44,878 nucleotides of DNA from Bacteroidota bacterium. GTDB taxonomy: Bacteria; Bacteroidota; Bacteroidia; UBA7662. Position 1 is the first letter of the stretch. Every line of letters begins with the position of its first letter. Positions 4,082 to 23,359 of this stretch are shown here, in pieces. Made by a program: the position numbers and the translations under genes. Below the pieces are notes generated by a model that saw only the letters and a program-made list of their open reading frames with translations, was not told the origin of the DNA and ran no database searches. The stretch covers positions 1-44,878 of the forward strand of contig JAIXRA010000067.1 of assembly GCA_027485465.1 (NCBI GenBank), in the 5' to 3' direction.

Positions 4082-5287
4082 TTAACGACATGCTTCGACC
4101 ACCAATGCCAGACCCTGTCCGACCCCAACGCACATGGTAGCCAACCCATACGGTGAGCTCTGCGGGTAGCGGTGCAAGGCATGGACCAAGGTCGTGGTAA
4201 TCCGAGCCCCCGAGCAACCCAAGGGATGGCCCAATGCAATGGCCCCTCCATGAATATTGACTCGTTCCATGGGCAAATCCAATTCGCGTTGGCAGGCCAA
4301 GGCCTGCGATGCAAATGCTTCGTTCAATTCAATGAGGCCCAAGTCGTTGGTAGTCAGACCAGCACGAGCGAGTGCCTTGCGGACCGCCGGTACCGGCCCC
4401 ATGCCCATGATGGCGGGATCGACACCGGCCGCACCAACCGATACCACCCTGGCCAAGGGTTTCAACCCATCCCGACGAACCGCTGTACCAGAGGCTAGAA
4501 TCAAGCAAGCTGCGCCATCGTTGATGCCCGAAGAATTGCCCGCTGTTACGGTGCCCCCGTTTTTGAAGGCCGGTTTAAGTTGCTCCAAAGCAGCCCGTTC
4601 CACGGGACGCGGGTGCTCATCCACTTCAAAAAGTTCGACCTTTCCCTTGCCTTTGGACACCTTCACCCCGATTCTTTCGCGTTCAAAGGCGCCATCGGCC
4701 TCGGCCGCTGCGTATTTGTGTTGCGAAGCGTGGGCAAAATCATCTTGGTCGCTGCGACTGATCTTGTACCGTTCGGCAACATTTTCGGCGGTTTCGCCCA
4801 TGGAATACGGATGGTACAGCCCTTCCCAACGTGGATTGGTAAAACGCCATCCCAGGGTGGTGTCGTAAACCCGGGGCTGACGATCAAAAGCCTGGTCCGG
4901 CTTGGCCATTACATAAGGCGCCCTTGACATGCTTTCCACACCGCCCGCGATGTAGTAATCTCCCTGGCCCAGGGCCAAAGCCCGGTAGGCATCAACGATG
5001 GATTGAAGACCGCTGGCGCAGAGTCGATTGACCGTGACGCCGGAGACCTCCAAAGGCAAACCAGCCAATAGCGAGGCCATGCGGGCCACGTTTCGGTTGT
5101 CTTCGCCGGCCTGGTTGGCGGCCCCCAGGATAACCTCCTCAATACGATGCGGATCAACCCCGGGGTTCCGATCCAATAAATGACGCAGGAGGTCGGCCAT
5201 TAAATCGTCCGGACGAACCTGCGCCAAAGCACCACCGTACCGACCGATGGGGGTCCGGGCTGCATCAACAATAAAAACCTCTTCCAT
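4082..5287 (-). CDS. Acetyl-CoA C-acyltransferase (thiolase)
   Basis: MEEVFIVDAARTPIGRYGGAL, NRLCASGLQSI (active Cys), NIHGGAIALGHPLGCSGARI, MCVGVGQG. Start set at the internal ATG 5287. Confidence 0.93.
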   Translation of the reverse strand: MEEVFIVDAARTPIGRYGGALAQVRPDDLMADLLRHLLDRNPGVDPHRIEEVILGAANQAGEDNRNVARMASLLAGLPLEVSGVTVNRLCASGLQSIVDAYRALALGQGDYYIAGGVESMSRAPYVMAKPDQAFDRQPRVYDTTLGWRFTNPRWEGLYHPYSMGETAENVAERYKISRSDQDDFAHASQHKYAAAEADGAFERERIGVKVSKGKGKVELFEVDEHPRPVERAALEQLKPAFKNGGTVTAGNSSGINDGAACLILASGTAVRRDGLKPLARVVSVGAAGVDPAIMGMGPVPAVRKALARAGLTTNDLGLIELNEAFASQALACQRELDLPMERVNIHGGAIALGHPLGCSGARITTTLVHALHRYPQSSPYGLATMCVGVGQGLALVVEACR

Positions 5288-5422
5288 GCCACAAAACTGC
5301 GAAGAATTGACCAAAGAACCCCTCCTTGTGCATCAAATATTCGGACATTTTGGCATAATGAAGGGTTCATAGCCCCATGGCACGGCCTTTGCGTAGGGCC
5401 TTGTACCCAAAAAAAAGAATCG

Positions 5423-7258
5423 ATGTCGACACAAAAGACCAAAACAGGGACCATTTCGGTCCATACCGAGAACATTTTCCCCCTCATCAAAAAGTCCCTC
5501 TACTCCAACCAGGAAATTTTTTTGAGGGAATTGGTAAGCAACGGGGTGGATGCCTGCCAGAAGTTAGCGGCTTTGGCCTCCATGGGAGAAGTAACCGGTG
5601 AACTGGGCGAGCTCCAAGTCACCGTTCACTTAGACAAAGACGCCAAAACCATTCGGATTTCAGATAATGGACTGGGATTGACAGAGGAAGAAATCGAAAA
5701 GTACATTACCCAAGTCGCCTTCTCTGGTGCTACCGAGTTTATCGAAAAGTACAAAGACAAGTCAGACCTCAACCAAATCATCGGAGCCTTTGGTTTGGGC
5801 TTTTATTCGGCCTTTATGGTCGCCGACCGAGTGGACCTCGAATCCCTATCTTATCGGGATGGAGCCCAAGCGGCCCGTTGGTCCTGCGATGGTTCCACCG
5901 AGTACCAAATCGGTAGCGGAACTCGCACCGAGCGGGGCACCGATATCATCCTGCATGTTGCCGAGGATGCTTCGGAATACCTGGACGAATGGAGGCTCAA
6001 GGAAATTCTGCGGAAATACGGCAAGTTCCTCCCCATCAAGGTCATGTTTGGCGATGAGCATATCAACGCTACATCGCCCTTGTGGACCCGCAAACCATCC
6101 GAACTCACCGATGAGGACTACCAGAACTTTTACAACGATCTGTACCCCATGGCCGAGAAGCCGTTGTTCTGGATTCACCTCAACGTCGACTACCCCTTCA
6201 ACCTCACCGGTATTTTGTATTTCCCCAAGCTCAAAGCCGACTTTGAGCCGACCAAAAACAAAATACAACTGTATAGCCGACAGGTGTTTATCACCGATTC
6301 AGTCGAGGACGTGGTCCCTGATTATCTGCGCCTATTGCACGGGGTGCTGGACTCCCCGGATATTCCGCTGAATGTTTCCCGTTCCTTTTTGCAGACCGAT
6401 GGCAATGTCAAGAAGATCAACAGCCATATTTCCAAAAAAGTGGCCGACAAGCTCCAGGACCTTGCCAAAAACCAGGAGGAATCCTTCCGTGAAAAGTGGG
6501 ATCAGCTAGAACTCTTCGTTAAATACGGGATGATTTCTGACGAAAAGTTTTATGAAAGAGCTGCTGGCTTTTGTTTGTACAAAGACTGCGATGGAAATCT
6601 GCGCAACTGGGATCAAACGGCCGAAATCCTCGAAGCCAATCATCGCAACAAAGACGGTCAACTGGTGGTGCTCTACACCAACCAAACAGAGGCCCATCAC
6701 ATGCTGATCGAAGGCGCGCGCAAAAGAGGCCTGACGGTCCTTCAGTTGGGCAATGTTATCGATCCCCATTTCATTGGGCAATTGGAAGGCAGACTCGAAA
6801 AAACGACCTTCAAACGAATTGATTCCGAAAGCCTGGACAAGTTGGTTGACAAGGGCGAGTCCAAAGGATCTTTGCTCAACGAGGAACAAGAAAAACAAGT
6901 GGTTGAATGGGTGGGTGACTGGGTGCGCGATCGCGATTTCAAGGTCAAGGCCGAGGCCATGTCTGCCGATGACCCCCCTATCCTGATAACCCGCCCCGAA
7001 TTCCTGAGGAGGATGAATGAAATGGCCGCCACCGGGGGATCCCCGTTTTTGGGAGGCCCCATGAAAGAAACCGTGGATATGGTCGTCAACGCGGCCCATC
7101 CCCTTGTACAGCAATTGGCCCTGACCAACGACGAATCCTCCAGAACAAGCCTGGGCCAAAACCTCATCGACCTGGCCCTTTTGTCGCAGGGCATGCTCAG
7201 CGGCGCCCCTTTGGCGGCCTTCATCGAACGCAGCCTCCAATCGGCATCTAAACCGTAA
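5423..7258 (+). CDS. htpG: Chaperone HtpG (Hsp90 family)
   Basis: ENIFPLIKKSLYSNQEIFLRELVSNGVDACQKL, ISDNGLGLTEEEI, IGAFGLGFYSAFMVAD. Confidence 0.95.
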   Translation: MSTQKTKTGTISVHTENIFPLIKKSLYSNQEIFLRELVSNGVDACQKLAALASMGEVTGELGELQVTVHLDKDAKTIRISDNGLGLTEEEIEKYITQVAFSGATEFIEKYKDKSDLNQIIGAFGLGFYSAFMVADRVDLESLSYRDGAQAARWSCDGSTEYQIGSGTRTERGTDIILHVAEDASEYLDEWRLKEILRKYGKFLPIKVMFGDEHINATSPLWTRKPSELTDEDYQNFYNDLYPMAEKPLFWIHLNVDYPFNLTGILYFPKLKADFEPTKNKIQLYSRQVFITDSVEDVVPDYLRLLHGVLDSPDIPLNVSRSFLQTDGNVKKINSHISKKVADKLQDLAKNQEESFREKWDQLELFVKYGMISDEKFYERAAGFCLYKDCDGNLRNWDQTAEILEANHRNKDGQLVVLYTNQTEAHHMLIEGARKRGLTVLQLGNVIDPHFIGQLEGRLEKTTFKRIDSESLDKLVDKGESKGSLLNEEQEKQVVEWVGDWVRDRDFKVKAEAMSADDPPILITRPEFLRRMNEMAATGGSPFLGGPMKETVDMVVNAAHPLVQQLALTNDESSRTSLGQNLIDLALLSQGMLSGAPLAAFIERSLQSASKP

Positions 7259-20391: not shown

Positions 20392-20410
20392 ACTATTAAG
20401 ATTTATGGTC

Positions 20411-20418: not shown

Positions 20419-20464
20419 CCGTCCTTTACGAAAATTCTTCGAATTAACCCTCAAAACCAAAGCC

Positions 20465-20758
20465 ATGACCAAAGCCGATTTGATTCGCCAGATTGCCGAC
20501 GAAACAGGAGTTGAACGAGTTGATGTTGCCCAAAGTGTAGAAGCCCTCATCGCAGTTGTAAAGAAATCCCTCAAAGGCGGTCAGAGTATCTATCTCCGCG
20601 GTTTTGGAAGTTTTATTATCAAGAAGCGCGCCAAGAAATTGGCCCGGAACATTTCCCGCGGTACCACCGTTGAAATCCCTGAACACTTTGTTCCTAGTTT
20701 CAAGCCCTCCAAGCAGTTTATCGATTTGGTCCGCAAAGGACCCAAAAAGACCCGCTAA
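20465..20758 (+). CDS. HU-family DNA-binding protein
   Basis: MTKADLIRQIADETGVERVDVAQSVEALIAVVKKSLKGGQSIYLRGFGSFIIKKRAKKLARNISRGTTVEIPEHFVPSFKPSKQF. Confidence 0.95.
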   Translation: MTKADLIRQIADETGVERVDVAQSVEALIAVVKKSLKGGQSIYLRGFGSFIIKKRAKKLARNISRGTTVEIPEHFVPSFKPSKQFIDLVRKGPKKTR

Positions 20759-20760
20759 AA

Positions 20761-21612
20761 ATGCTCTCTAGACCCCTAATCCTGGTAATCCTCTGCCTAG
20801 CAGTGGGTTTGACCCTTGCGATTGGGGGGCAACGGAGTGCCATGAAAGCGGGCGATGCGGGGGATCCTGACCCCAAGGAACAGGATTCCGGTGCAGAGCC
20901 CACTGCCTCCACCGTGTTGGATAGCAAGGTGAAAGCATTGTCCGAAGAAGACCGAACCCGCTTTGAATCGGTTCGTTCCGCCCTGGACTCCCTCAAGGAT
21001 CGCCCCGAACAAACCGCGGGTTTGTGGAAGAGTTTGGCGTCTTTTTGGTTAACCCGTCAGGATTTTCTAGGAGCGGCTGTTTGTTTGGACCAAGCCCTTG
21101 TTTGGGGCCCCAACGGGGTCGATTTCAAGGAGGCCGGTCTTTATTACAGCTCTGCAAGGCATGCCCCCGAGGCCGAAGACAGCCTCGTACAGGCCTTTTG
21201 CCGTCGCCGCTCCACGGAACTCTTGGCCAAGGCCTTGGAAACCCAACCCAACGATCTTGACCTCAAAGCAGATTGGGCTCAGGCCCTGGTACTCTCCAGT
21301 CCGGCCCCTATGCAAGGGGTTCAGGTTCTTATGGGTATCGTCAAAGAGGAGCCCCGCCACCTGAAGGCCCATGCACACCTTGCCAAATTGGCCATCGAAA
21401 GCAAGCAATTCCCCAAAGCCATTCAGCGTTTCAAAAACCTCTTGGATTGGTACCCCGGCTTGGGCGAAGCTTACCTTGGCCTGGGTGAAGCCTATTACCG
21501 GTCCGGTCAAGCGGACAGTGCAGTCTTCTACCTCAAGCAATACCGCGGATTGGTCCGCGACCCAGAAATACAAGAACAGATCGATTCCTATCTGAATCAA
21601 ATTCAACCTTAA
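20761..21612 (+). CDS. TPR-repeat protein with N-terminal membrane segment
   Basis: N-terminal hydrophobic segment, then TPR-like repeats (AHAHLAKLAIESKQFPKAIQRFKNLLDWYPGLGEAYLGLGEAYYRSGQADSAVFYLKQY). Confidence 0.8.
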   Translation: MLSRPLILVILCLAVGLTLAIGGQRSAMKAGDAGDPDPKEQDSGAEPTASTVLDSKVKALSEEDRTRFESVRSALDSLKDRPEQTAGLWKSLASFWLTRQDFLGAAVCLDQALVWGPNGVDFKEAGLYYSSARHAPEAEDSLVQAFCRRRSTELLAKALETQPNDLDLKADWAQALVLSSPAPMQGVQVLMGIVKEEPRHLKAHAHLAKLAIESKQFPKAIQRFKNLLDWYPGLGEAYLGLGEAYYRSGQADSAVFYLKQYRGLVRDPEIQEQIDSYLNQIQP

Positions 21613-21623
21613 TCCCACCCCCT

Positions 21624-21713
21624 ATGCCCTGCGGTAAAAAAAGAAAGCGTCATAAGATGTCCACGCACAAGCGCAAAAAGCGTTTGAGAAAAAATCGCCA
21701 CAAGAAAAAATAA
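21624..21713 (+). CDS. 29-aa highly basic mini-protein, probable ribosome- or RNA-associated protein
   Basis: Manual translation MPCGKKRKRHKMSTHKRKKRLRKNRHKKK*; 20 of 29 residues are K/R/H; lies between the TPR gene and rng on the same strand. Below the size cutoff of the ORF track. Confidence 0.75.
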   Translation: MPCGKKRKRHKMSTHKRKKRLRKNRHKKK

Positions 21714-21728
21714 TTCCGGTCTGAGAAT

Positions 21729-21752
21729 GGGTCTCCTTTGCGAAGGATACCC
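21729..21752 (+). other. Predicted RNA hairpin 1 in the rng leader
   Basis: GGGT-C-TCCTT-TGCG-AAGGA-T-ACCC: 9 Watson-Crick pairs, one C/T mismatch, TGCG tetraloop. Confidence 0.5.
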
Positions 21753-21771
21753 ACAGACTTTGGCATGACCT

Positions 21772-21791
21772 CTTTCGCCCTTAGGCGAAGG
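21772..21791 (+). other. Predicted RNA hairpin 2 in the rng leader
   Basis: CTTTCGCC-CTTA-GGCGAAGG: 8-bp stem (one U-G wobble) with 4-nt loop, 17 nt before the rng GTG. Confidence 0.5.
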
Positions 21792-21808
21792 ACCAAATAT
21801 TTATTGCC

Positions 21809-23359
21809 GTGAGTAAATCACTATTTGTCAGCCACTCGAGCAAGGGCTTTGTCTTTGCTATGACCGAGGGCAAGAAACTCGTTGAATACGGGGAAGAAAC
21901 CAACGAAAAAGCTTTTCAGGTTGGAGATATCTATTGGGGGGAAGTACGCAAAATCAACCCCTCACTCAATGCCTGCTTTGTCGACGTTGGAGACGAAAAA
22001 GACGGGTTTCTTCACTATTTGGATTTGGGCGAACATTTTGGATCGCTTCGAAAATTAACCCAGGAGCTGAACGGGGGAAAGCGCAAACCCGGCATGCTCC
22101 AAAATTTTGAAAAAGCCGAAATTCTTCCCAAAGAAGGAAAAATTGGGGACTATCTTCAAAAGGGCGACAAAATTCCAGTCCAAATCACCAAGGAACCCAT
22201 CAATTCCAAAGGCCCACGTCTGACCGCTTCGCTTTCTTTGGCCGGTCGTTTTTGTGTCCTGCTTCCCGTTGATAGCGGGGTTTCGGTTTCTCGCAAAATC
22301 GTGGATGCCAACGAAAAGAAAAGGCTGAAACAAATCGCCTCTCAGGCCCTGCCACGAAATTTTGGGGTCATTGTGCGCACCGCCGCTGTCGGGGCAGGAT
22401 CCGATGAAATCTCCAGCGATATTCAAGACCTGGTTACAAAGTGGAAAGAGATTTCCCAAAAAATCGCTGCAGCCAAGCCCAAAGACCTGATTAGCAAAGA
22501 AATAACCAGGGTAACCGGATTGCTGCGAGATTTGTTAAGCGATCAGTTTGATCAAATTTTGGTGGACCATCCTGGCATGGCCGAACAGCTCCGCGAATAT
22601 GTTCAGGGTATTGCCCCCGACAAGGTCAACCTGGTTCAGGATTACAAAGGCAAGGTGCCTCTCTTTGAGCATACTGGCTTGGACAAACAAGTCAAGGGCT
22701 CCTTTGGCACATCGGTCAGCATGCCCGGTGGCATTTATTTGGTCATTGAACATACCGAAGCTTTGCATGTCATCGATGTCAATAGCGGAAATCGTTCCAA
22801 GAAAGACAACGACCAGCAGGAACATGCCCTGCAAACCAATATGGACGCCGCCGAAGAGATTGCAAGACAACTTCGGCTGAGGGACATGGGCGGCATCATC
22901 GTCATCGATTTCATAGATCTCAAATCCGCCGAGCATCGCAAGGCCCTTTTGGACAAGATGATTGGCCTCATGTCCACAGACCGGGCCAAGCATCATATTC
23001 TACCCATGTCCAAGTTTGGACTGATGGAAATCACCCGTCAACGGGTAAGGCCAGCCGTTCAAATATCCACCCAGGAACAATGCGCGGCTTGCAGAGGCAC
23101 GGGCAAAATTGGACCCAGCCTTTTGATTACCGATCAAATCGAAAGTCGTCTTGATTTTTTGCTGCTCAAAAACGGAGAGAAAAGCGTAACCATCAGCGCC
23201 CATCCCCACTTGGCTGCCTATTGCAAAAGCGGTTGGCCTTCTTTGCAGTGGAAATGGGTTTGGAAATACCGCAAATCAGTCAAAGTCAGGGCAGACCAGC
23301 AATTGCTCATGGGAGAATACCGCTTGCTAAATCCCAAAGGAGAGGTCATCCCCCTTTGA
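21809..23359 (+). CDS. rng: Ribonuclease G/E family endoribonuclease
   Basis: SKSLFVSHSSKGFVFAMTEGKKLVEY, YWGEVRKINPSLNACFVDVGDEKDGFLHYLDL (S1-like), LHVIDVNSGNR, GGIIVIDFIDLKS, CAACRGTGKIG. GTG start. Confidence 0.95.
   Translation: MSKSLFVSHSSKGFVFAMTEGKKLVEYGEETNEKAFQVGDIYWGEVRKINPSLNACFVDVGDEKDGFLHYLDLGEHFGSLRKLTQELNGGKRKPGMLQNFEKAEILPKEGKIGDYLQKGDKIPVQITKEPINSKGPRLTASLSLAGRFCVLLPVDSGVSVSRKIVDANEKKRLKQIASQALPRNFGVIVRTAAVGAGSDEISSDIQDLVTKWKEISQKIAAAKPKDLISKEITRVTGLLRDLLSDQFDQILVDHPGMAEQLREYVQGIAPDKVNLVQDYKGKVPLFEHTGLDKQVKGSFGTSVSMPGGIYLVIEHTEALHVIDVNSGNRSKKDNDQQEHALQTNMDAAEEIARQLRLRDMGGIIVIDFIDLKSAEHRKALLDKMIGLMSTDRAKHHILPMSKFGLMEITRQRVRPAVQISTQEQCAACRGTGKIGPSLLITDQIESRLDFLLLKNGEKSVTISAHPHLAAYCKSGWPSLQWKWVWKYRKSVKVRADQQLLMGEYRLLNPKGEVIPL

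Follow-up and report, generated by a model that had tools for sequence, protein, structure and literature searches.

Identity of the encoded peptide

The short gene at 21624–21713 of the window, i.e., of the whole 44,878-nucleotide stretch that was analysed, almost certainly encodes bS22, a ribosomal protein of the small subunit, as judged from sequence matches to chains modelled in solved ribosomes. The reading frame runs on the plus strand from an ATG at 21624 to a TAA stop ending at 21713, and its product is MPCGKKRKRHKMSTHKRKKRLRKNRHKKK (29 aa). The ORF listing leaves it a single possible start, with no ATG, GTG or TTG further upstream in frame. Eleven lysines, six arginines and three histidines make up 20 of the 29 residues (69%), and lysine and arginine alone account for 17 (59%), in agreement with the length and composition of bS22-type proteins (approximately 28–35 aa, more than 55% K/R). 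Furthermore, the peptide matches the pattern MPxG[KR]KRK...HK.KK...RHKK, the residues of which are invariant in alignment A1. The preliminary description of this DNA, which had reported a 29-aa mini-gene of about 70% K/R/H with a clear start and stop, oriented as the HU, TPR and rng genes are, proves accurate on each of these points, with all four genes on the plus strand (Table 1).

A phmmer search of 177,635 PDB sequences with the 29-aa peptide as query returned, at E ≤ 10, just three distinct sequences, all aligned without gaps over 28–29 residues: 9i5v_10, named "AURKAIP1/COX24 domain-containing protein" (E 1.6e-9), the Flavobacterium johnsoniae chain 7jil_5 (E 6.1e-9) and the Borrelia bS22 chain 8fmw_V (E 2.3e-7). 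A second search of the PDB, with a family profile built from 12 relatives, matched the same sequences with E values of 8.4e-13, 1.8e-14 and 5.2e-13, respectively. The assignment to bS22 follows from these matches, since both the single sequence and the profile align over the full length with bS22 chains modelled in ribosomes. The identity of the protein is thus one already known, and bS22 is an ordinary component of this genome. The composition had earlier been likened to that of very small ribosomal proteins, a suggestion borne out by the PDB matches, the conservation and the synteny; comparison with the small proteins modelled in Bacteroidota ribosomes, also proposed at that stage, yields 7jil_5 at the E value given above.

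The closest solved sequence, chain 10 of 9i5v/9i5x, differs from the window peptide at three of 29 positions (C3N, S13A, R22K). The F. johnsoniae bS22 (7jil chain 5), from the same phylum, has 30 residues versus 29, aligns over the full length without gaps, and shows five substitutions among the 29 positions of the printed alignment (C3S, M12V, S13A, L21A, K23A) together with one additional C-terminal lysine. The Borrelia burgdorferi protein (8fmw chain V) is likewise a full-length match and has the MPCG start in common with the window peptide, although it belongs to a different phylum and its gene begins with GUG, whereas the window gene begins with ATG.

Table 1. Features of the bS22 locus in the window
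Feature	Coordinates	Strand	Evidence and remarks
HU-type DNA-binding protein	20459..20758	+	Pfam PF00216, E 1.4e-25; first gene of the conserved cluster; likelier start given
TPR protein	20761..21612	+	Pfam TPR_19, E 2.2e-13; N-terminal hydrophobic stretch; syntenic in relatives
bS22 coding sequence (assignment almost certain)	21624..21713	+	29 aa + stop; ORF, PDB matches, conservation, pN/pS
bS22-rng spacer, 95 bases	21714..21808	+	two strong predicted hairpins (folds)
rng, ribonuclease E/G family	21809..23359	+	GTG start; Pfam PF10150, E 7.8e-95

Conservation and selection

With the 29-aa query, tblastn detects bS22 in 59 of 60 relatives, among them all 53 good-quality relatives within the class; in the phylum sample it is present in 244 of 248 genomes. 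The 58 loci used for the diversity counts comprise 56 distinct DNA versions and only 11 peptides, the latter being an underestimate because the loci taken were the best-scoring ones; identity drops to 72% in more distant members. Pairwise differences at codon positions 1, 2 and 3 amount to 3.55, 0.27 and 14.48, and Nei-Gojobori counts give pS 0.92 and pN 0.051 (pN/pS 0.055). The comparison of synonymous with non-synonymous change that had been advised for this gene therefore has a clear outcome: relatives keep the frame, and nearly all of the change is synonymous. bS22 is a single-copy, near-universal gene of the phylum and is under extreme purifying selection. No phage-encoded copy was found in 50,697 phage records, nor was one found on viral contigs with a degenerate pattern, an exact-pattern scan that divergent copies would escape.

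Alternative readings

The mini-ORF is a real gene. Shortness and a lysine-rich, low-complexity composition are what a chance ORF would offer, but such an origin has a vanishingly small probability in view of the full-length PDB matches, the synonymous type of conservation and the fixed synteny; the phmmer E value of 1.6e-9 and the retention of the frame in 59 of 60 relatives refute it. The preliminary description had also raised the question of whether the mini-protein equals bL38, a 50S protein known first from the ribosome of F. johnsoniae. The PDB itself lends this reading a label, for one F. johnsoniae sequence (7jil_5; 9oz9, 9ozn, 9ozz, 9p0e) carries the name "30S ribosomal protein S22 | 50S ribosomal protein L38" across five entries. 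However, bS22 and bL38 of F. johnsoniae are two separate proteins in PMC10618245, and the Borrelia match of the window peptide is chain V, bS22. In that work, F. johnsoniae bL38 has beta strands and lies in the large subunit beside uL6, uL14 and 23S H95, and Borrelia bL38 extends past residue 50 (PMC10618245). The "L38" label is most plausibly a naming error, and bL38 is a very improbable identity; the answer to the question is almost certainly bS22, of the 30S subunit, and the link to L38 is a matter of the PDB label only.

Equally improbable is a free, extra-ribosomal basic peptide that would assist HU or RNase E/G by binding RNA or DNA. HU is a constant neighbour of the gene, as is rng in the class of the window, and free bS22 of C. 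acnes is both antimicrobial and translation-inhibiting (PMC10085706); against this, close homologues are modelled inside the F. johnsoniae and Borrelia ribosomes, and outside the class the protein is nearly unchanged, yet the linkage to rng is missing. Ribosomal bS22 accordingly remains the preferred reading of the gene.

Relation to the wider family

The protein had been suggested to be lineage-specific. This does not hold, given the close Borrelia homologue 8fmw_V and the proteins bS22, mS38 and eL41 that occupy the same pocket in structures from other groups. Structures from the literature show actinobacterial bS22, mitochondrial mS38 (AURKAIP1/COX24) and eukaryotic eL41 in this common pocket (PMC10618245, PMC10085706, PMC6582356), and 37% identity is reported between the C. 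acnes and F. johnsoniae proteins (PMC10085706). At the sequence level, in contrast to the shared site, a link between these proteins and the window peptide went undetected. Pfam and NCBIfam scans of the single peptide and of 12 relatives gave nothing useful; PF08213 COX24_C (cut-off 23 bits), the AURKAIP1/mS38 domain after which such proteins are named in databases, had no match in the genome itself and one among the 12 relatives (E 0.13). An hhalign comparison with mycobacterial bS22, taken as an exact PDB match, produced no alignment (4.4% probability), a weak test with two near-identical sequences on one side. Since the profile comparison gave no alignment, the tie to the mycobacterial branch rests on the structures and on the 37% identity; likewise, the grouping of the protein with actinobacterial bS22, mS38 and eL41 has its basis in published structures. 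In each of the sequence features examined, the window protein groups with the bS22 of Bacteroidota and spirochaetes.

Genomic neighbourhood

In the class of the window, the gene order is MutY (divergent), HU, TPR, bS22 and rng, and the four neighbours in the window are confirmed by Pfam. Outside this class, most lineages still have HU and a TPR protein upstream of bS22 but no rng downstream, and some lineages carry bS22 in other gene contexts. The mention, in the preliminary description, of similar proteins near rng in other Bacteroidota is thus correct for the class of the window; beyond it, the linkage is to HU and TPR instead. Across the phylum, the linkage of bS22 to HU and TPR is older than that to rng. 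Across classes, the TPR protein keeps its place between HU and bS22. An N-terminal zinc ribbon is present in this protein in several out-of-class lineages (L064, L065, L071, L072 and L075 were compared) and is absent from the copy in the window. In one out-of-class locus (L064, bases 4450–5840), the translations read just downstream of bS22 are MraZ- and RsmH-like. RsmH modifies h44, the helix contacted by bS22.

The longest HU ORF begins at 20405; because the HU domain begins near residue 21 of this ORF, the start at 20459 (MTKADL...) is the likelier one. The intergenic gaps measure 2 bases between HU and TPR, 11 bases between TPR and bS22, and 95 bases between bS22 and rng. From the 11-base spacing, TPR and bS22 are probably carried on one transcript. 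A GGAGG-like Shine-Dalgarno sequence precedes the bS22 start in several out-of-class loci and is mostly absent in the window and its classmates; Bacteroidia are described as neglecting Shine-Dalgarno signals (PMC9976891). bS22 is probably expressed from a HU-TPR-bS22 transcript without such a signal, as is usual for the class.

Most relatives (spacers in L002–L030) also have a strong predicted hairpin between bS22 and rng, of unrelated sequence and in some cases with a T-run after it. The window spacer contains no terminator consensus with a T-run, and no Rfam family was matched in the window. Some of the hairpins in relatives are terminator-like, and others could be a leader control element of RNase E/G. 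Because the spacer holds strong predicted hairpins, bS22 is probably the final gene of the HU-TPR-bS22 unit, which would end in a stop or processing signal ahead of rng. As a general rule, an operon with rng is unsupported, as the spacers of relatives hold strong unrelated hairpins, some of them terminator-like.

Ribosomal site in orthologues and proposed role

In F. johnsoniae and Borrelia, bS22 occupies a small-subunit pocket formed by 16S h2, h27, h44 and h45 (PMC10618245). The Borrelia protein touches 23S H68 (PMC10618245) and that of C. acnes touches 23S H67 (PMC10085706); the orthologue structures share a bent, very basic buried helix that provides an additional subunit bridge (PMC10618245, PMC10085706). 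At the corresponding position, yeast mS38 is required for the normal structure of the decoding centre, and certain mRNAs depend on it for initiation (PMC6582356). By orthology, the basic, bent helix of the window protein would sit in the h2/h27/h44/h45 pocket below the decoding site and would reach 23S H67/H68 across the subunit interface. From such burial in an rRNA pocket, and from this reach across the interface, it would follow that bS22 neutralises phosphate charge, keeps the upper part of h44 in place at the decoding centre and adds a subunit bridge. Its role here is most likely that of its orthologues, namely charge neutralisation, stabilisation of upper h44 and subunit bridging.

Apparent absence in the family containing Salinibacter

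The genomes of the phylum sample in which bS22 was not matched include all three of one genus, and the HU protein of one bS22-less genome (G201) is 97% identical to that of Salinibacter altiplanensis. A profile search of the family (data from L099, L100, L104 and L105; genomes G201, G249, G253 and G316–G336) detected bS22 in all three genomes of one genus (E 1.4e-13). The other eight of the nine genera, represented by 24 genomes, gave no convincing bS22 in this search, the only trace being a weak match of nine residues (E 0.058), and positive controls were matched in the same kind of search. Among the good-quality genomes of the family, bS22 is present in 1 of 14. Two genomes of the bS22-less genus retain the HU-TPR order, with a different gene directly after it and no bS22-like frame. 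bS22 appears to have been lost in most of the Salinibacter family, which may possess a diverged or relocated replacement. In another family, a single genome (G281; L098, 1800–2500) lacks bS22 at the site, between its intact HU gene and the following gene, where relatives carry it; either a true loss or a relocation may explain this.

The Salinibacter family maintains a very high intracellular salt concentration. A tentative proposal, which is rather doubtful at present, is that bS22 may help ribosomes that ignore Shine-Dalgarno signals to hold mRNA and helix 44, and that the high-salt Salinibacter family dropped it at an intact HU-TPR site when charge neutralisation had become dispensable, leaving a natural knockout of the pocket.

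Implications

Short ribosomal genes slip below ORF cut-offs, and Borrelia bS22 was found only through cryo-EM; the double S22/L38 naming in the PDB can further mislead annotation. The conserved HU-TPR-bS22 neighbourhood is an aid both to finding and to annotating the gene. Its apparent loss in relatives of Salinibacter offers a natural comparison for the function of bS22.
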